From: Campylobacterota bacterium
GTDB lineage: Bacteria > Campylobacterota > Campylobacteria > Campylobacterales > Sulfurovaceae
NCBI GenBank assembly: GCA_003252535.1
Contig: QKDN01000002.1
Span: forward strand, 1-64,000
DNA: 64,000 nt
Direction: 5' to 3'
Under the pieces are notes generated by a model, which was not told where the DNA came from, ran no database searches, and saw only the letters and a program-made list of their open reading frames with translations. A program made the position numbers and the translations under genes. Shown in pieces: positions 3,619 through 44,576 of this stretch. Each line of letters opens with the position of its first letter. Positions within the stretch are counted from its first letter, which is position 1.

Positions 3619-3639
3619 CAGATATCTCAAGGGCACCTC

Positions 3640-3697
3640 TAAAAACCCATTCAAAATACAAATGTTCCTGCGCCATGCAAACGAAAGCAACCCGTCA
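3640..3697. repeat. Repeat A, degenerate half copy
   Basis: The string CCTCTAAAAACCC followed by TTCCTGCGCCATGC resembles the left half of the repeat A copies at 9435, 36586 and 44371. The right half (GCGCATGGCTTCTCGC) is missing. The copy ends at the stop codon of the minus-strand DUF1801 gene, so the intergenic region between two convergent genes is essentially this remnant. Confidence 0.5.
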
Positions 3698-6288: not shown

Positions 6289-9200
6289 CTACGCCTCCTG
6301 CTTGAACCTGCCTTTGTAGAGGTAGGTATAGAGGATAGGGAGGTAGAGGAGGTTGAGGACCGTACCCCATGCGAGGCCGAATCCCAGCGCGACCGCCAGC
6401 GGCTGGAAGATCACCGCCTGCCCGACCGGGAAGAAGATCAGTGTCGCCAGCCCCACAAGGGTCGTCACCGAAGTGAGGACGATAGGGCGGAAACGCTTGG
6501 CGGCGAGGCGGTAGACGTCGTCGATGGTTTGCGCGCTTTTGAGGGTGACGAGCATGATGATCCCGTCGTTGATGACGACACCGCTGAGTCCCAGCGTCCC
6601 GATGAGGGTCGGCATACCGATGTTGAGCCCCAGCAACAGGTGTCCCACCATGACCCCGAGGATCGAGAAGGGGATCACCGAGAGGAGGATCAGCGACTCA
6701 CGGTAGGAGTTGAGCAGGTAGAGCAGCGAGAGGAGGATCAGCAGCAGGGCGGCAGAGGCAGCCGAGAGCATATCGGAGCGAAGCTCTTCTTTCTTCTCTT
6801 TTTCCCCTTTCTTGACCACTCGGATACCCTCTTTGGAGAGGGCTTTGAGATCGGGTTCGAGGAGCTCGAGCACCTCGTCGGCGGTGATGATCTTCGGGTC
6901 TACGTTGGCGAAGATGTAGAAGTTCTTGACCCCTCTGTCCTTGGTCACTTTCTCGAAGTTCCTGATCGTTTCGAATGTCGTCACCTCACGCAGCGACACG
7001 CTCCGTCCGTCCGCGAGGAGGATGGGGAGCTCCTCGAGCTCCTGGAGATTGTCCTTCTGCCGCCCTTCGACCTTCACCTCCAGGAGTCCTTCGCGGTTGA
7101 AGGTGGAGGAGACCTTGCGGGTGAGGTAGAGATTGGAGAGGGCCTTGCCGATCATCTGCTCGTCGACCCCGAGCGATTCGCCGTAGGGGTTGATATGGAG
7201 CTTGATCTCGTCGATCCCCAGCTGCACCGTATCGGCGACGGAGGTGATGCCACCCATCGCTGAGAGCTTCTTCTCGAGCATCTGTGCCGCTTCGATGATG
7301 GCACGGTTGTCGTTGCCTATGAGACCGAGCATGATATCGGACTTGATGGGGCCTACCTTCTTCTGGACGACGCTGATCTCTTTAAGACCGTACTTTTCCT
7401 TGTAATGCTGCGCGTCGATGAACTTCGCCAGCTTTTTGGATATCCTGTCGGACTGGAGGTCCCTCGTGCGCCCCTCTTCGTCGTAATAGAACGAGAGATA
7501 GGGGGTGATATACTCATCGACGGCGTTCTGTGCCTTGAGCTTGGTCAGCTCGACGGTGATATCGCCGACATAGGGGTAGTTCTCGCTGTTGTTGGCGCTG
7601 TCTTTGCGGTAGCCTGCGACCGAGCCGACATGGTCGATGGAGAACTTCTCTTTGTTGGCATAGAGGTCGCGCTGTATCTCGAGGAGGATAGCGTCCATCT
7701 CCTCGACGCTCGTGTCGACATTCGATTTGAGGGCGATATGGATCGTGGTGGAGTCGAACTGTGGGAACATCTGGAACTTGCTGGTCTTGATCAGCAGGAA
7801 GCTCAGCAGCGGCACGACGATAATGAACGTGAAGAGGAAGCTCTTTTTGTGCTTCATCAGGTGGTGGATAATGCGGCTGTAGAGTTCGTTGGCCTTTTCC
7901 CATGAGCGCACCGGGTGTTTGGTATCGAGGGTGTGGGCGGCATGGATGGGGAGGAAGAGGAACGCTTCGAGCAGCGAAGCGATCACCAGTGCAGAGACGG
8001 CGATGGGGACGAGCTTCATCACCTCTCCCATCGTCCCGGAGATCATCAGCGCGGGGATGAAGGCAAAGAGGGTCGTCACCGAGGCTATCGTCACAGGGAG
8101 GGCCATCTCTTTGGTACCGACGATGGCGGCAGTGATGGAGTCGTACCCCTCCTCGATCTTCTGCTGGATATTCTCGCTCACCACGATGGCGTCGTCGACG
8201 ATGATCCCCAGGGCGAGCAGTACCCCGATCAGGGAGATCATATTGATCGTATAGCCGCTGAGGTAAAAGACGAACGCCCCGATGAGGAACGAAGTGGGGA
8301 TACCAAGCGTGATGATGAACGCCATCCGCATATTGATCAGCCAGGCCACCAGCAGGGCGATGATGATGAGCCCGAGGAGGATATTGGAGATGACGATATT
8401 GAGCCTGTCCTTGATCTTTTCGGTATTGTCATCATGGATGAAGACCTCCACGTCGGGGTTCCTCTCATGGAACTCCTCGAGCACTTTCTGTATCTGTCCC
8501 CCCAGCACCATGGCGTTCCCCTTCTGGTCCTGCTTGAGGACGATGTTGAGGGCGGGTTTGGCATCCATGTGGTAGAGGGTGAGGGAGTCCTCGTAGCGTT
8601 TGGAGACGGCGGCGATATCCTTGAGATAGAGGGTGTACTCTCCCACTTTGATGAGGGTGTTGCCCCAATCTTCGGCATTTTTCTTGCCGTTGGCGGTGGA
8701 GAGGTAGAAGAACCCCCGTTTCTGGTCCTCTATCTTGCCCAGCGGGAAGATGTAGGAGAGCTTGGCCAGAGCGGTGGCCACACTGTCGAAGTTGAGCCCC
8801 AGTGCGGCGATCCGCTCGGTATCGAGCTCAACATGGTAGTAGAGATCAGAATCGCCGAATATCTCGATGTCGTTGATATACTTGATCTTGGCCAGCCTCT
8901 CCTTGAGCTTCTGGGCCAGGGGTTTGAGCTGCGATATATCCAGGGTCGATGAGGTGACGGCGATATCAAGGAGGTCCCTTCGGGTCTCCTGCACGCTGAC
9001 GACGGGGTCGTCCATATCTTCGGGGAAATCCTTTTTGGCGATGGCGAGGGCATCCTTGACCTTGTCGGCGGTGTTGTATTTATCGATCCCTTTCTCCAGC
9101 TCGAGGACGACGGTGAAGCGTCCCGAGGTGATGACGGTGGTGAGCTCCTTGATCCCGTCGAGGTTCACAAGCTCCTCTTCGAGCGGGGTGACCGCCATCT

Positions 9201-9387
9201 TGTCGATGACATCGAGGGATGCGCCGTTGTAGACGCCTGTGACCGAGACCATGTCGAGCTCGAAGGAGGGGAATATCTCCTTGGGTATCCTGGCATAGGA
9301 GTAGATACCTACGGCGATTATGAGGAAGAAAAGTGTATAATTTATCCTGCTGTTGAGGGTGAAAAATCGAACAAGGTTCTCGAACAT
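6289..9387 (-). CDS. RND-family efflux transporter permease
   Basis: A 1032-residue inner-membrane proton-driven transporter of the AcrB/HME/HAE type. The N-terminus has the usual membrane helix followed by a porter domain. The TM4 region LGIIVDDAIVVSENI carries the two aspartates of the proton relay. The second half repeats the pattern, with GVVINDGIIMLVTL in the TM10 region. The length is normal for the family. No membrane-fusion protein or outer-membrane channel gene flanks it; instead it is followed immediately by the C39-like membrane protein. The substrate cannot be predicted. It is transcribed leftward, away from the BatD gene, across an intergenic region holding repeat A copy 1. Confidence 0.9.
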   Translation of the reverse strand: MFENLVRFFTLNSRINYTLFFLIIAVGIYSYARIPKEIFPSFELDMVSVTGVYNGASLDVIDKMAVTPLEEELVNLDGIKELTTVITSGRFTVVLELEKGIDKYNTADKVKDALAIAKKDFPEDMDDPVVSVQETRRDLLDIAVTSSTLDISQLKPLAQKLKERLAKIKYINDIEIFGDSDLYYHVELDTERIAALGLNFDSVATALAKLSYIFPLGKIEDQKRGFFYLSTANGKKNAEDWGNTLIKVGEYTLYLKDIAAVSKRYEDSLTLYHMDAKPALNIVLKQDQKGNAMVLGGQIQKVLEEFHERNPDVEVFIHDDNTEKIKDRLNIVISNILLGLIIIALLVAWLINMRMAFIITLGIPTSFLIGAFVFYLSGYTINMISLIGVLLALGIIVDDAIVVSENIQQKIEEGYDSITAAIVGTKEMALPVTIASVTTLFAFIPALMISGTMGEVMKLVPIAVSALVIASLLEAFLFLPIHAAHTLDTKHPVRSWEKANELYSRIIHHLMKHKKSFLFTFIIVVPLLSFLLIKTSKFQMFPQFDSTTIHIALKSNVDTSVEEMDAILLEIQRDLYANKEKFSIDHVGSVAGYRKDSANNSENYPYVGDITVELTKLKAQNAVDEYITPYLSFYYDEEGRTRDLQSDRISKKLAKFIDAQHYKEKYGLKEISVVQKKVGPIKSDIMLGLIGNDNRAIIEAAQMLEKKLSAMGGITSVADTVQLGIDEIKLHINPYGESLGVDEQMIGKALSNLYLTRKVSSTFNREGLLEVKVEGRQKDNLQELEELPILLADGRSVSLREVTTFETIRNFEKVTKDRGVKNFYIFANVDPKIITADEVLELLEPDLKALSKEGIRVVKKGEKEKKEELRSDMLSAASAALLLILLSLLYLLNSYRESLILLSVIPFSILGVMVGHLLLGLNIGMPTLIGTLGLSGVVINDGIIMLVTLKSAQTIDDVYRLAAKRFRPIVLTSVTTLVGLATLIFFPVGQAVIFQPLAVALGFGLAWGTVLNLLYLPILYTYLYKGRFKQEA

Positions 9388-9434
9388 TCTATTTTATTTT
9401 TACCTTTACTTGAATGGGCAGCCCCTAAGAACTG

Positions 9435-9521
9435 CCTCCATAGAGAGCGCTCCTGCGCCATGCGAACGCAGGCGCCCATTGCATGGGTTTGGCGCATGGC
9501 TTCTCGCACTCTCTGTGGAGG
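9435..9521. repeat. Repeat A copy 1, palindromic element between divergent genes
   Basis: Outer arms CCTCCATAGAGAG and CTCTCTGTGGAGG pair over 13 bases with one G.U position. Inside lies a core shared with copies at 36586 and 44371: CTCCTGCGCCATGCGAACGC, a small CCCAT/ATGGG hairpin, and GCGCATGGCTTCTCGC. GCCATGCG and CGCATGGC also pair. It occupies the gap between the start of the RND permease (minus) and the start of the BatD gene (plus). Confidence 0.8.
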
Positions 9522-9607
9522 AAGAGTTATAGTGTTTAGTGAGGCTCTTATATGATCTTGCGATTATAACCAAAAAAAAGAGAAATTGACCAAAATGAGA
9601 GGTAGCA

Positions 9608-10693
9608 GTGAAGTTTGTTAGATTTATACTGGGGATGCTTCTGGTCTCCCTGCTCGGCGCCGAGGATTTCAGCTACAAGTTCGATCTTTCGGCCACGCGC
9701 CTCTATGTGAAGGAGCCGCTCGTCCTCAAGCTCAACATCGAGCAGACCGACAAGAGCAAAGTGCTCCTCTTCAGGTTCGATCTCAAAAAGAGCGATGCCT
9801 ACGAGTTCCACCGGATCGATATGCGCTCTTATGGCGCCCACCATGCCGCCAGACTCGAATACACCTACCTCGTCTACCCGCTCAGAGCCGGCAGGATCGA
9901 CCTGGAGTTCGACCTCACCAAGATGGTCACGACCGACGAGAGCGTCGCCTACAGCTTTTCGGGCGACAGGGACAATGTCCGTGACCTGCACAAGGACGAG
10001 TACCCCATATCCCTCCCGCCACTCGGTCTCGATGTGCAGGCCATCCCGGAGGGGACCGACCTGGTCGGGGATTTCAGCCTTTCTTACGATATCCCCGCCA
10101 AAAAGTTCGGCTCCTACGAGCCTATCCCGATCAAAGTAACCCTGGAGGGGAACGGCTACCCGCCGCTGCTGGAGAAGCTCTACCCGGAGTCGAAAGAGTA
10201 CAGGGTATTCGAAGGGGAGCGCGAGGAGAAGATGCTCCGCTCCGTCAAAGGGACGGCCAATACCGTCATCTACCCCCTCGCGCTGAGCGCCGAGAAGAGC
10301 TTCACCCTCCCGCCCCTCACCTTGAACGTCTTCGATCCGAAGAGAGGGAAAAGCTACACTCTCACCATCGGCAAACATAGCTTCGAGATAGAGAAGCCCG
10401 ATATCGCCACGCTCGTCGACAGCAGGGACGATCCCAAACCGCTGGAGAGCGACAGCGGCTACTGGGGGACGATCTTCAGTTACCTGATCGTCTTCGCTGC
10501 CGGGTATCTGAGTGCGGTCGCCATGGCCAACCGGCTGCCAAAGCGGATCATCCCACAAAGTGCGGAGGACGAGACGGAGCGACGTATCAGTGAGACCAAA
10601 GACCCCAAAAAGCTCCTCGCCCTCCTCATGGCCACCGACAGGGTCAGGTACAAAGACGAGATAGAGAAGCTGGAGAAGAAGCTTTTCAAGTAA
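9608..10693 (+). CDS. BatD-like (oxygen tolerance) membrane protein
   Basis: A 361-residue protein starting with GTG at 9608 behind AGAGG. A signal peptide (residues 1-17, ending in LLGA) is followed by beta-rich extracytoplasmic domains, a C-terminal membrane segment (about residues 287-305, YWGTIFSYLIVFAAGYLSAV) and a charged cytoplasmic tail. This layout and the position upstream of a MoxR ATPase and a DUF58 protein match BatD of the Bat/MoxR systems, which are linked to envelope protein maturation and stress tolerance. The usual von Willebrand A proteins BatA and BatB are absent from this cluster. A compound hairpin (10754-10841) separates it from moxR. Confidence 0.72.
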   Translation: MKFVRFILGMLLVSLLGAEDFSYKFDLSATRLYVKEPLVLKLNIEQTDKSKVLLFRFDLKKSDAYEFHRIDMRSYGAHHAARLEYTYLVYPLRAGRIDLEFDLTKMVTTDESVAYSFSGDRDNVRDLHKDEYPISLPPLGLDVQAIPEGTDLVGDFSLSYDIPAKKFGSYEPIPIKVTLEGNGYPPLLEKLYPESKEYRVFEGEREEKMLRSVKGTANTVIYPLALSAEKSFTLPPLTLNVFDPKRGKSYTLTIGKHSFEIEKPDIATLVDSRDDPKPLESDSGYWGTIFSYLIVFAAGYLSAVAMANRLPKRIIPQSAEDETERRISETKDPKKLLALLMATDRVRYKDEIEKLEKKLFK

Positions 10694-21392: not shown

Positions 21393-21507
21393 CGTAGGGT
21401 GTTGTGCCAGACAACACCTTGAATCGCATAGTTCCTTATATTTCAAATAACCGGTACGATTTTTTACCGTCGCCGTTTTCGGTGTTGTGAGGGCACAACA
21501 CCCTACG
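21393..21507. repeat. Repeat B copy 1 (CGTAGGGTG...CACCCTACG)
   Basis: The element begins CGTAGGGTGTTGTG and ends CACAACACCCTACG, so its ends are inverted. Each end also folds alone: GGTGTTGT...ACAACACC on both sides. The 62-base middle does not match the other copies. It fills the gap between glcD and the YihY gene. Confidence 0.8.
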
Positions 21508-32041: not shown

Positions 32042-32116
32042 TGGTGACCCCACGGAGACTCGAACTCCGGTAACCAGGATGAAAACCTGGGATCCTAACC
32101 GCTAGACGATGGGGCC
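32042..32116 (-). tRNA. tRNA-Glu (anticodon TTC), copy 1
   Basis: A complete cloverleaf on the minus strand: acceptor GGCCCCA with TGGGGTC, D-arm TCTAGCGGTTAGGA, anticodon stem CCAGG/CCTGG around loop TTTTCAT (anticodon TTC), and T-arm CCGGAGTTCGAGTCTCCG. CCA is encoded. It is identical over its 75 bases to the tRNA 32 bases upstream. Confidence 0.97.
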
Positions 32117-32148: not shown

Positions 32149-32223
32149 TGGTGACCCCACGGAGACTCGAACTCCGGTAACCAGGATGAAAACCTGGGAT
32201 CCTAACCGCTAGACGATGGGGCC
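32149..32223 (-). tRNA. tRNA-Glu (anticodon TTC), copy 2
   Basis: Identical in sequence to copy 1, with encoded CCA. It is the promoter-proximal member of the tandem pair, so both are probably cut from one precursor. Confidence 0.97.
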
Positions 32224-33770: not shown

Positions 33771-33848
33771 CAGGGTATTGTCCCCCGACAACACCGTAAT
33801 GTTACAATCCGATGAAAATACTGGTGTTGTGAGGGCACAACACCCTAC
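33771..33848. repeat. Repeat B copy 2
   Basis: Begins CAGGGTATTGTCCCCCGACA and ends GGGCACAACACCCTAC. The middle (GTAATGTTACAATCCGATGA and AAATACT) is nearly the reverse complement of the middle of copy 3 at 42246, so these two are the same element in opposite orientation. It lies between the convergent nfo and argJ genes. Confidence 0.75.
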
Positions 33849-33857
33849 AATCATACG

Positions 33858-36535: not shown

Positions 36536-36541
36536 TATAAT
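36536..36541 (+). promoter_or_regulatory. Extended -10 promoter of the rpe operon
   Basis: TGCTATAAT is a full extended -10 (TGnTATAAT), 179 bases upstream of rpe. Transcription from here would place repeat A copy 2 (36586-36652) inside the 5' leader of the rpe-trpF-exonuclease transcript. Confidence 0.5.
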
Positions 36542-36585
36542 CCAATCGAAACAGAAGGGAATCCTGAAGAATCCTGTCCCAAATA

Positions 36586-36652
36586 TGCGCGCTCCTGCGC
36601 TATGCGAACGCTTTTCCCCGTTTCACGGGTCGAGCGCATGGCTTCTCGCGCA
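36586..36652. repeat. Repeat A copy 2, palindromic element between rpmB and rpe
   Basis: Same core as copies 1 and 3: CTCCTGCGCTATGCGAACGC and GCGCATGGCTTCTCG around a CCCGT/ACGGG hairpin with loop TTC. The inner stem differs from CCCAT/ATGGG in the other copies by a compensated base pair. The arms begin TGCGCG/CGCGCA. Weaker pairing continues outward (AGGGAATCC near 36556 with GGGATTCCT near 36682). Confidence 0.75.
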
Positions 36653-36719
36653 CTTTTCGGAGCAATACGGGGACTTTTGCAGGGATTCCTACGCCAGAAA
36701 ATAAAAGAGAGAAACCATT

Positions 36720-37361
36720 ATGCTAGTAGCGCCAAGTATCCTGTCGGCCGATTTCGGTCATCTTGCCGAAGATGTCAGAGCCATTTGCGAAGGGGGCTGC
36801 GACCTCGTCCATGTCGATGTGATGGACGGCCACTTCGTCCCCAACCTCACCATCGGTCCCGTCGTTGTCGAAGCGGTCGCCAAAGCCGCGACTAAACCGC
36901 TCGATATCCACCTGATGGTACAGAACAACACCTTTTTCGTCGAGCTTTTCGCACCGCTCAAGCCGGGGTATATCTCTTTCCATATAGAAGAGGAAAAACA
37001 CCCCCACCGCCTCATCCAAAAGATCAGGTCGTACGGCATCAAGCCCGCTATCACCCTCAACCCCCACACGCCGCCCGAAGCGATCGAGTTCCTCCTCGAA
37101 GACCTCGATATGGTGCTCCTGATGTCGGTCAACCCTGGGTTCGGCGGGCAGAGCTTCATCCCGTCGGTGATCGAAAAGGCCAAAAGACTTAAAGCGATGA
37201 TCGAAAAAAGAAACCCTGACTGCCTTATCGAAGTGGACGGCGGCGTGAACGACAAGAATGTCCGCGAGCTCGAAGCGGCAGGGGTCGATATCGTCGTCGC
37301 GGGCTCCTATGTCTACAAGCACCCCGTGAGCGTCGAAGCGGCGATCGCATCGCTGAAGTAG
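36720..37361 (+). CDS. rpe: Ribulose-phosphate 3-epimerase
   Basis: A 213-residue TIM-barrel enzyme interconverting ribulose 5-phosphate and xylulose 5-phosphate. VAPSILSADFGHL, HVDVMDGHFVPNLTIGP, LDIHLMVQN, LLMSVNPGFGGQSFIP and IEVDGGVN are the expected motifs with metal-binding His and Asp residues. It is first gene of a run with trpF (four-base gap) and a DnaQ-like exonuclease gene. Confidence 0.97.
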   Translation: MLVAPSILSADFGHLAEDVRAICEGGCDLVHVDVMDGHFVPNLTIGPVVVEAVAKAATKPLDIHLMVQNNTFFVELFAPLKPGYISFHIEEEKHPHRLIQKIRSYGIKPAITLNPHTPPEAIEFLLEDLDMVLLMSVNPGFGGQSFIPSVIEKAKRLKAMIEKRNPDCLIEVDGGVNDKNVRELEAAGVDIVVAGSYVYKHPVSVEAAIASLK

Positions 37362-42245: not shown

Positions 42246-42332
42246 CGTGTAGGGTGTTGTGTCCTCACAACACCAGTATTTTCATCGGATCGAAACATTA
42301 ACGGTGTTGTCGGGGGGACAACACCCTACACG
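42246..42332. repeat. Repeat B copy 3
   Basis: Starts CGTGTAGGGTGTTGTGTCCT and ends GGGACAACACCCTACACG. Both ends form GGTGTTGT/ACAACACC hairpins, and the outer ends pair over 15 bases. The middle is the reverse complement of that of copy 2. It fills most of the gap between the start of ppk1 and the end of uvrB. Confidence 0.8.
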
Positions 42333-42337
42333 AAATA

Positions 42338-44311
42338 TTATAGTTTTTTTATCTTCGCTATCTCGTCCCGTAGCCTTGCAGCCTCCTCGAACTCGAGCTT
42401 CTTGGCCGCTTCGAGCATCCTTGCTTTGAGCTCCCCTACGAGTCTCTGGCGCTCTTTGGCGGGCATCTTATCGAGCTTGGACTGCTTGTTGTAGAGCTCT
42501 CCGGCATCCTCTACCTTGAGGTTGGTATCGAGCTCGCGAATGGTGGTTCTGGGGGTGATGCCGTGCTCTTTGTTGTAGGCGATTTGCTTCTCCCGCCTCG
42601 CCTGCGTGGTGTCGATACACGCCTGCATCGAGCGGGTCACGCGCTTGGCGTACATCAGCACGATGCCGTTGGAGTTTCTTGCTGCCCGTCCGGCTGTCTG
42701 GATGAGGGCTGTTTCGCTCCTGAGGAACCCCTCCTTGTCGGCGTCGAGGATCGCTACGAGGCTCACCTCTGGGAGGTCAAGCCCTTCCCTGAGGAGGTTG
42801 ATCCCCACGAGGACATCGAATTCACCTAATCTCAAACTACGGATGATCTGGTTGCGCTCGATCGCGTCGAGGTCGGAGTGCATATACTTCACCTTGAGCC
42901 CGAGGTCGTTGTAGTAGGTGGTGAGCTCTTCGGCCATTTTCTTGGTGAGGACAGTCACCAGCACCCTCTCGCCCCGTTCCACCACCTTCTTGATACGGTC
43001 GTGGAGGTTGGCGACCTGATCGGTGGAGTCGATCACCTCGATCACGGGGTCGAGGAGCCCGGTGGGGCGTACTACCTGCTCGGCGACGACGGGGGAGAGA
43101 TCGAGCTCCAGCTCGGCGGGGGTGGCAGAGACGAAGAGGTAGCGTGGAGCCTTGCCGATGAACTCGTCGAACTTCAGCGGCCTGTTGTCGAGAGCCGAGG
43201 GGAGGCGGAAACCGTGCTCGACCAGCACCTCCTTGCGGCTGCGGTCGCCTGCGTACATCCCGCGGAACTGCGGGAGGCTCACATGGGATTCGTCGACGAT
43301 GACGAGGTAGTTCTCATGCATCGCCGCGAAGTAGTCCTGCATCGAGTAGGGGGTCTCTCCCGCTTTTTTCCCCGTCAGGTGGCGGGAGTAGTTCTCTATC
43401 CCCTTGCACATCCCGGTCGATTCGAGCATCTCGAGGTCGAACTCGGTGCGCTGCTTGAGGCGGTTGTACTCCACCATCCGCCCCTCTCTCTGATAGTAGG
43501 CGAGCCTTTCCCCCAGTTCCTCCTCGATGCTCTTGATAGCGAGGGCGAGCTTCTCCTTGCCGACGATGAACTGGTTGGCGGCGTAGATGGTGATCTCTTT
43601 TTTATCCTTCCCCTTCTCCCCCGTGAGGGAGTCGAAAGGGTAGATACGCTCTATCTCGTCGCCGAAGAACTCGATCCGGAGCGCCTCCTCCTCGCTGTAG
43701 GCGGGGTAGATGTCGATCACATCACCGCTGACGCGGAAGTCGCCGCGGTCGAAGTAGGCGTCGTTGCGCTTGTAGCCCATGTCGACGAGGCGCAGCAGCA
43801 GGTCCTTCTGCCTGTACTCGTCACCCACACGGAGGTTCTGCACGACCGAGCGGTAGTCCTCGGGGGAACCGAGACCGTAGTTGGCAGAGACCGAGGCGAT
43901 GACGATGACATCGTCGTAGCTCAGCAGGCTGGCGGTGGCGCTGAGCCTGAGGCGTTCGAGCTCCTGGTTGGTCGAGCTGTCCTTCTCGATGAAGAGATCC
44001 TGTCTGGGGAGGTAGGCCTCGGGCTGGTAGTAGTCGTAGTAGGAGATGAAGTACTCGACGTGGTTGTTGGGGAAGAAGCTCTTGAACTCGCTGTAGAGCT
44101 GGGCGGCGAGGGTTTTGTTGTGGGTCATGATGAGGGTGGGCATCGCCACTTTCTCGATCACTTTGGCCATCGTATAGGTCTTGCCGCTCCCGGTGACCCC
44201 CAGGAGCGTCTGGTACTGGTGACCCTCCATGATGGAGCGGCTCAGCTCCTCTATCGCCTGCGGCTGGTCGCCCGAGGGGCTGTATGGACTCGAAACTTCA
44301 AATTGTGACAT
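42338..44311 (-). CDS. uvrB: Excinuclease ABC subunit B
   Basis: A 657-residue helicase-like subunit of nucleotide excision repair. [16 protein letters not shown], Walker [15 protein letters not shown], the beta-hairpin region [63 protein letters not shown] and a C-terminal UvrC-binding UVR helix ([16 protein letters not shown]) are all present. It is divergent from the ZapB-like gene across repeat A copy 3. Confidence 0.98.
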
Positions 44312-44370
44312 ATTACCCTGCTTGTATTCTCAGATTTCTGGTATCGGACACCCCTAAAAACCATCAGGTA

Positions 44371-44456
44371 CTCCAAAAGCGGGCGCGACAAGCCATGCGC
44401 CAACCCATGAAATGGGCGCTTGCGTTCGCATGGCGCAGGAGCGCCCGCTTTTGGAG
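44371..44456. repeat. Repeat A copy 3, with perfect 16-bp arms
   Basis: CTCCAAAAGCGGGCGC and GCGCCCGCTTTTGGAG are perfect arms that other copies do not share. The core is the repeat A core in inverted orientation: GCCATGCGCC, CCCAT-GAA-ATGGG and GCGTTCGCATGGCGCAGGAG. Beyond the arms CTAAAAACC and GGTTTTATAG pair again. It lies between divergent uvrB and the ZapB-like gene. Confidence 0.85.
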
Positions 44457-44576
44457 CAGGTTTTATAGAAGTGCTCTATTATACCGAAGTATGATTAAGA
44501 TATTTTCCCGGAATTCATTTGAGCTTAGAGATTGTTACGCTATCATTTCGGTACGATACCAAAACCGGAGCCCCGT

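Follow-up and report, generated by a model that had tools for sequence, protein, structure and literature searches.

Copies of the element in the window

The window analysed here, a stretch of 64,000 nucleotides at the start of contig QKDN01000002.1 from a member of the Sulfurovaceae, contains three copies of a hairpin-bearing repeat and a truncated fourth. Copy 1 is located between the start of a gene of the AcrB family (6289-9387, minus strand; Pfam ACR_tran) and an open reading frame at 9608-10693 on the plus strand, copy 2 in the presumed 5' UTR of rpe (36720-37361, plus strand; Pfam Ribul_P_3_epim), and copy 3 upstream of uvrB (42338-44311, minus strand; UvrB domains in Pfam). The features are listed below, where R1 is a covariance model of the whole element and R2 a model of the hairpin.

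3631..3690, plus strand: truncated fourth copy, with the left TIR, the left arm and the 5' half of the core (R1 search, sequence)
9416..9547, plus strand: copy 1, whole element from TIR to TIR (R1 match 1-131, 132 bits)
9436..9520, plus strand: copy 1, three-way-junction hairpin with P1 arms, loops, P2 and tips (R2 match, E=3e-23)
36536..36541, plus strand: TATAAT, -10-like box just upstream of copy 2 (sequence)
36557..36688, plus strand: copy 2, whole element (R1 match, 91 bits)
36578..36662, plus strand: copy 2, hairpin with degraded outer arms (R2 match, E=7e-15; several non-standard P1 pairs)
44346..44476, minus strand: copy 3, whole element (R1 match, 133 bits)
44372..44455, minus strand: copy 3, hairpin (R2 match, E=1e-24)
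44478..44483, minus strand: TATAAT, -10-like box beside the left end of copy 3 (sequence)
44462..44476, minus strand: copy 3, left TIR GAGCACTTCTATAAA, decayed (alignment A1)
44443..44455, minus strand: copy 3, P1 left arm (R2 structure)
44435..44442, minus strand: copy 3, 5' side of the conserved internal loop, GCTCCTGC (near-invariant columns of alignment A3)
44385..44391, minus strand: copy 3, 3' side of the conserved internal loop, TTGTCGC (near-invariant columns of A3)
44372..44384, minus strand: copy 3, P1 right arm (R2 structure)
44346..44360, minus strand: copy 3, right TIR TTTTTAGGGGTGTCC, decayed (alignment A1)

The initial annotation had described a repeat at these three places, and the hairpin model recovers all of them; copy 3 folds with a DNA z of -7.2. 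The core that it described, which we find to span about 58 bases, and the compensated changes in the tip hairpin (CCCAT/ATGGG, CCCGT/ACGGG) are confirmed. The repeat had been delimited too narrowly, however, as the TIRs just outside the arms were overlooked. The arms were further said to pair with each other at every copy and to be unrelated between copies. The pairing holds at copies 1 and 3, whereas only the inner ~6 bp pair well at copy 2; the lack of relatedness applies between genera, but copies 1 and 3 have arms that are variants of a family consensus, CTCCAAAAGnGAG, shared by the arms in this genome.

Architecture, mobility and distribution

In the alignment of copies from the genome to which the window belongs (2.92 Mb in 77 contigs; hereafter the own genome), conservation continues past the arms out to the TIRs GGGCAYCTCTAAAAA and TTTTTAGAGRTGCCC, and the locus-specific arms lie inside the element, between these TIRs. 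The element, GGGCAYCTCTAAAAA...TTTTTAGAGRTGCCC, is about 130 bp long (~131 bp), non-coding and dispersed in intergenic DNA. Young copies with intact TIRs bear 4-bp direct repeats on both sides, as would be produced by target duplication: ATCA, AAAA, AAAC, TTCC and TTGA at own copies L006, L007, L016, L032 and L037, and ATCT, ATAA, ATCC, ATCA and TAAA at the further copies L046, L047, L053, L116 and L117. Duplications of 4 bp were also read by eye in relatives with GAGTNCTCTGAAAAA TIRs, and none is visible at the three window copies, the TIRs of which are decayed. The TIRs, together with the direct repeats around TIR-intact copies, identify the unit as a ~130-bp MITE: short, non-coding and TIR-bounded, with target duplication, and multicopy with empty orthologous sites. 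At both rpe and uvrB, the element is present in the own genome only and absent in relatives.

The copies were probably moved by a DDE-type transposase recognising the TIRs. An autonomous transposase with matching TIRs was not found among the PF01609 loci and TIR pairs of the genomes sampled, and no open reading frame resembling a transposase lies within a 1.76-kb TIR pair in G126. Of 120 genomes of the family, 25 contain the TIR of the element; the reversed control pattern gave no matches. Several small, unrelated elements of 37 bp, 50 bp and ~265 bp in the family (L141, L143-L146, L150-L152) are likewise bounded by the TIR GGGCACCTCTAAAAA, and the 37-bp one has TTAT at both sides (L152); for this reason, one transposase probably serves many MITEs. 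One copy of the hairpin element (L142, G032:C48:4066-4267) has intact TIRs and about 80 extra bases in the tip region.

A whole-genome search for the core, as suggested by the initial annotation, gave 61 core matches in the own genome, and R1 places the number of element copies there at about 65. R1 matches were also obtained in 16 of 80 relatives, representing nine genera. Among named genomes, the tip pattern was found in Sulfurovum, Nitratifractor and other Campylobacterales MAGs, as well as in two Anaerolineales contigs, and the hosts of the element are deep-sea vent bacteria. The same loops recur in the Sulfurovum- and Nitratifractor-type genomes (Sulfurovaceae), with unrelated arms. In the two Anaerolineales (Chloroflexota) MAG contigs, L249 and L255, the context of the tip pattern is a different, near-identical one, and we regard these matches as chance or an unrelated motif. 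The exact 28-base core pattern, which is too specific, has no match in GTDB 220 contigs; the tip pattern has none in viral contigs, where 16-mer matches were excluded as probable chance matches, and phages and plasmids gave no match. In other families of the Campylobacterales, the tip motif GCRAACGCAAGCGCCC..GGGTTRRGYGC also forms the apex of different palindromic elements of greater length (L205, L208, L212, L230, L296, L297, L308).

The hairpin shows no bias relative to gene direction, with 12 sense and 13 antisense copies in the own genome, 11 of each in the named relatives, and 2 sense and 3 antisense in G043/G081. The element is situated directly behind the -10-like box of both rpe and uvrB in the own genome, and copies adjoin TAYAAT boxes more often than expected, 16 of 58 copies being located no more than 26 nt downstream of a box pointing at the copy (11 sense, 5 antisense). 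Since some copies thus follow a -10-like box within ~26 nt, the element may have a role in transcription or in 5' UTRs. An excess of divergent gene contexts (27 versus 16.5 expected) is not claimed here, since it depends on crude open reading frame calls and varied between two methods. Inspection of the consensus revealed no T-run after P1, as would mark an intrinsic terminator.

Fold, loop conservation and replication polarity

The body of the element folds into a three-way-junction hairpin, consisting of the P1 arms, an internal loop with the conserved halves ACTCYKGC / TTGTCGC, P2, AA-TT, and two tip hairpins, P3a and P3b; the internal loop and the junction are kept across genera. The structure was tested on alignment A3, which contains 40 diverse copies, with shuffling and sliding of the pairing partners as controls. 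Standard pairs made up 90.7% in A3 as compared to 67.7% after shuffling, double-change cells numbered 273 versus 80, and the covariation score was 0.59 versus 0.16, while the structure vanished when partners were slid. All 13 P1 pairs change on both sides, nearly always from one Watson-Crick pair to another. Over 107 copies, the fourth tip pair is AT in 51, GC in 29, CG in 15, TA in 11 and a wobble in one; P3a is a hairpin that varies independently (CGCAAGCG, CGGCAAAGCCG, TGGCAAAGCCA, CACCTGCGGTG), and the R-Y pair of P2 in the relatives is A-T 39 times, G-C 21 times and never mismatched. Between genera the arms are unrelated yet mutually complementary, as in TTTTTTGCCCGAT/ATCGGGCAAAAAA, TTCTTTGGGTCAAGC/ACTTGACCCAAAGAA and GTGTGGTGAAGCAAAGC/ACTTTACTTCACCACAC. 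Beyond the innermost pair, the arms comprise 727 Watson-Crick, 9 G.T and 16 C.A pairs in the own copies and 871, 5 and 19 in the relatives, so that more than 90% are Watson-Crick and G.T, at about 1%, is rarer than C.A. An RNA helix on the hairpin strand should favour G.U over C.A, but no such wobble preference is seen.

The unpaired loops look conserved in place, because the core does not diverge as the TIRs decay and because of one site shared between genomes. Over quartiles of TIR divergence, from ~10 to ~60%, core divergence stays flat at 9.6, 8.3, 9.2 and 10.3% (Spearman 0.13, p = 0.36, 56 own copies), although the copies were found through the core, such that strongly decayed cores are under-sampled, and TIR decay is only a proxy for age. 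Even so, an intact core beside a TIR that has diverged by 40-60% would be very unlikely under equal rates. The Sulfurovum genomes G047 and G031 share a hairpin site between two small heat-shock-protein (sHsp) genes, at which P1, P2 and P3a all differ and the internal loop is conserved on both sides.

The orientation of the hairpin follows the replication strand. In five other genomes, 36 of 38 copies are on the G-rich (leading) strand (p = 5e-9), which makes the hairpin strand the template of the lagging strand. In G027, a single contig of 2,101,285 bp for which GC skew puts the origin near 0 and the terminus near 1.05 Mb, 8 of 9 hairpins are on the G-rich strand; the counts are 15/15 in G043 and 7/8 in G081 by the GC skew of the 10-20 kb around each copy, and 4/4 in G047 and 2/2 in G031 agree if the origin is at 0, the skew having been checked at only one G047 region. 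In the own genome, where strands were assigned by the GC skew of draft contigs, 46 of 63 copies are on the G-rich strand (p = 3e-4), and the fraction increases with TIR decay, from 6/14 in TIR-intact copies through 17/22 to 17/20 in TIR-decayed ones (Mann-Whitney p = 0.014). The lack of polarity among intact copies and its presence among decayed ones would fit retention of correctly oriented copies. Alternatively, the polarity could stem from an insertion bias instead of a function, because the copies in G043 with TIRs still recognisable are already polarised, 15 out of 15.

Competing explanations and related repeats

We favor, with a probability of roughly 60%, the reading that the element is a non-autonomous, TIR-bounded MITE family with a conserved three-way-junction hairpin as its body, the fold of which would be recognised as single-stranded DNA. 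The observations joined by this reading are the mobility recorded in TIRs and target duplications, the branched fold, the free complementary arms, the conserved loops and the replication polarity. As part of the lagging-strand template, the hairpin strand would become accessible as single-stranded DNA and fold, a trans-acting protein, either of the host or a transposase, may recognise the folded strand through its loops, and correctly oriented copies would be inserted or kept preferentially. A hairpin-binding protein was not found in the genomes sampled. The complementarity of the arms would be kept by structural need, helped by hairpin-templated repair; template switching can keep hairpin arms complementary, as described for RNA hairpins (PMC8794818), but it cannot conserve unpaired loops.

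According to a less probable explanation, the MITE is neutral: the hairpin has no function after insertion, template-switch (quasipalindrome) repair keeps the arms, and the transposase prefers lagging-strand targets in one orientation. Double changes that are Watson-Crick only are the expected product of template switching (PMC8794818), and the TIR and target-duplication anatomy and the polarised copies with recognisable TIRs in G043 fit such an account, whereas the loops kept beside decayed TIRs and at the site shared by G047 and G031, together with the unpolarised TIR-intact copies of the own genome, argue against it. We think it unlikely that the hairpin is a cis-acting RNA element of 5' UTRs or operon spacers, serving mRNA stability or processing or as a protein-binding RNA. 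The strong RNA-like covariation and the position of copies behind TAYAAT boxes would suit such a role, as would the Sulfurovum hairpins between hslV-hslU and between the two sHsp genes, all in sense (L305 of G047; L295/L293), but there is no overall sense-strand preference, G.U pairs are very few, the replication polarity is unrelated to gene direction, and Rfam gave no match to the element at the gathering threshold in the window or at E<=1 at 17 loci. A role in heat-shock operons was rejected, as the hslV-hslU hairpin is absent from the same spacer in relatives.

The polarity would also be explained if the element were REP-like and a Y1 (RAYT/IS200-like) transposase moved it as single-stranded DNA; the combination of a hairpin, conserved unpaired bases and lagging-strand polarity resembles IS200/IS605 and REP biology, and Y1_Tnp genes are common in the genomes examined. 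Yet none of 30 Y1 loci has a hairpin nearby, G081 contains 8 copies and no Y1_Tnp, a GTAG or CGTC foot is missing, and the copies have TIRs and also 4-bp target duplications, which Y1 elements are not known to make, so that this explanation is largely refuted and highly improbable. Least credible of all is the model put forward in the initial annotation, in which a palindromic core is inserted into the loops of existing hairpins and the arms are host sequence. It would account for arms that are unrelated between genera and still complementary, but it is refuted for TIR-bearing copies by TIRs and target duplications outside the arms and by the arm consensus of the own genome. Empty sites already holding an arm hairpin would have supported it; the rpe promoter region of the same-genus genomes G003 and G005, however, has neither the element nor an arm hairpin, and for copy 2 the idea of a hairpin that existed before the insertion is thereby refuted. 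The other option offered there, in which structural constraint acts on the whole stem and its sequence is free, is well supported by the covariation and the G047/G031 site.

Few bacterial repeats combine a conserved branched structure with stems that drift freely and an almost complete polarity relative to the replication strand. Should the fold act on single-stranded DNA, as in the reading that we favor, a transposon would have given rise to a polar chromosomal signal of a new kind; otherwise, the family is a clean natural system in which to study fork-directed DDE transposition and hairpin-templated repair. One tentative and rather doubtful extension is that these are domesticated or co-opted, replication-polar chromosomal hairpins, DNA structures of the lagging-strand template with conserved unpaired loops. 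A TIR transposon would have spread them, after which only one orientation was retained, and they would serve replication restart, priming or chromosome organisation in the Sulfurovaceae.

No description of the hairpin element was found in the literature searched, and the initial annotation was right that no named family fits as far as Rfam and REP/RAYT are concerned, although the element is of the MITE kind. Like bacterial MITEs such as Correia, RUP, ERIC/RU-1 and Nezha, it is short, non-coding, TIR-bounded, multicopy and intergenic, folds into a hairpin and duplicates its target; it differs in the three-way-junction core with unpaired motifs, the free complementary arms and the strong replication polarity, and no autonomous partner was found. 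An orientation bias tied to the lagging-strand template is shared with insertion of the IS200/IS605 and Tn7 TnsE type, and hairpin recognition with IS200/IS605, but no such enzyme is linked to the element here. Integron attC sites likewise consist of a folded single strand recognised by its structure, with free stem sequence and conserved unpaired bases; in contrast, inspection of the hairpin foot revealed no R-box pair (RYYYAAC/GTTRRRY), and the element is not in a cassette array. Some bacterial MITE families are listed in PMC3733652, which also reports GTAG- and CGTC-tagged repeats in Sulfurovum NBC37-1 that are distinct from the element described here. Such tagged repeats and the REP/REPIN sequences with RAYT (PMC3733652, PMC3116915) are dispersed palindromic repeats too, but the consensus of our element has no GTAG/CGTC tag at the hairpin foot, it has TIRs and a 4-bp target duplication, its branched hairpin is 85 nt long as compared to 20-40 nt, and it has no Y1 gene nearby.

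The window also contains a second palindromic repeat, GGTGTTGTGAGGGCACAACACC, at 21481-21502, 33797-33849 and 42248-42300, for which no occurrence is expected by chance; two of its copies have ~50 bp in common, and it represents another small repeat family. Furthermore, two identical tRNA genes are arranged in tandem on the minus strand at 32045-32116 and 32152-32223.
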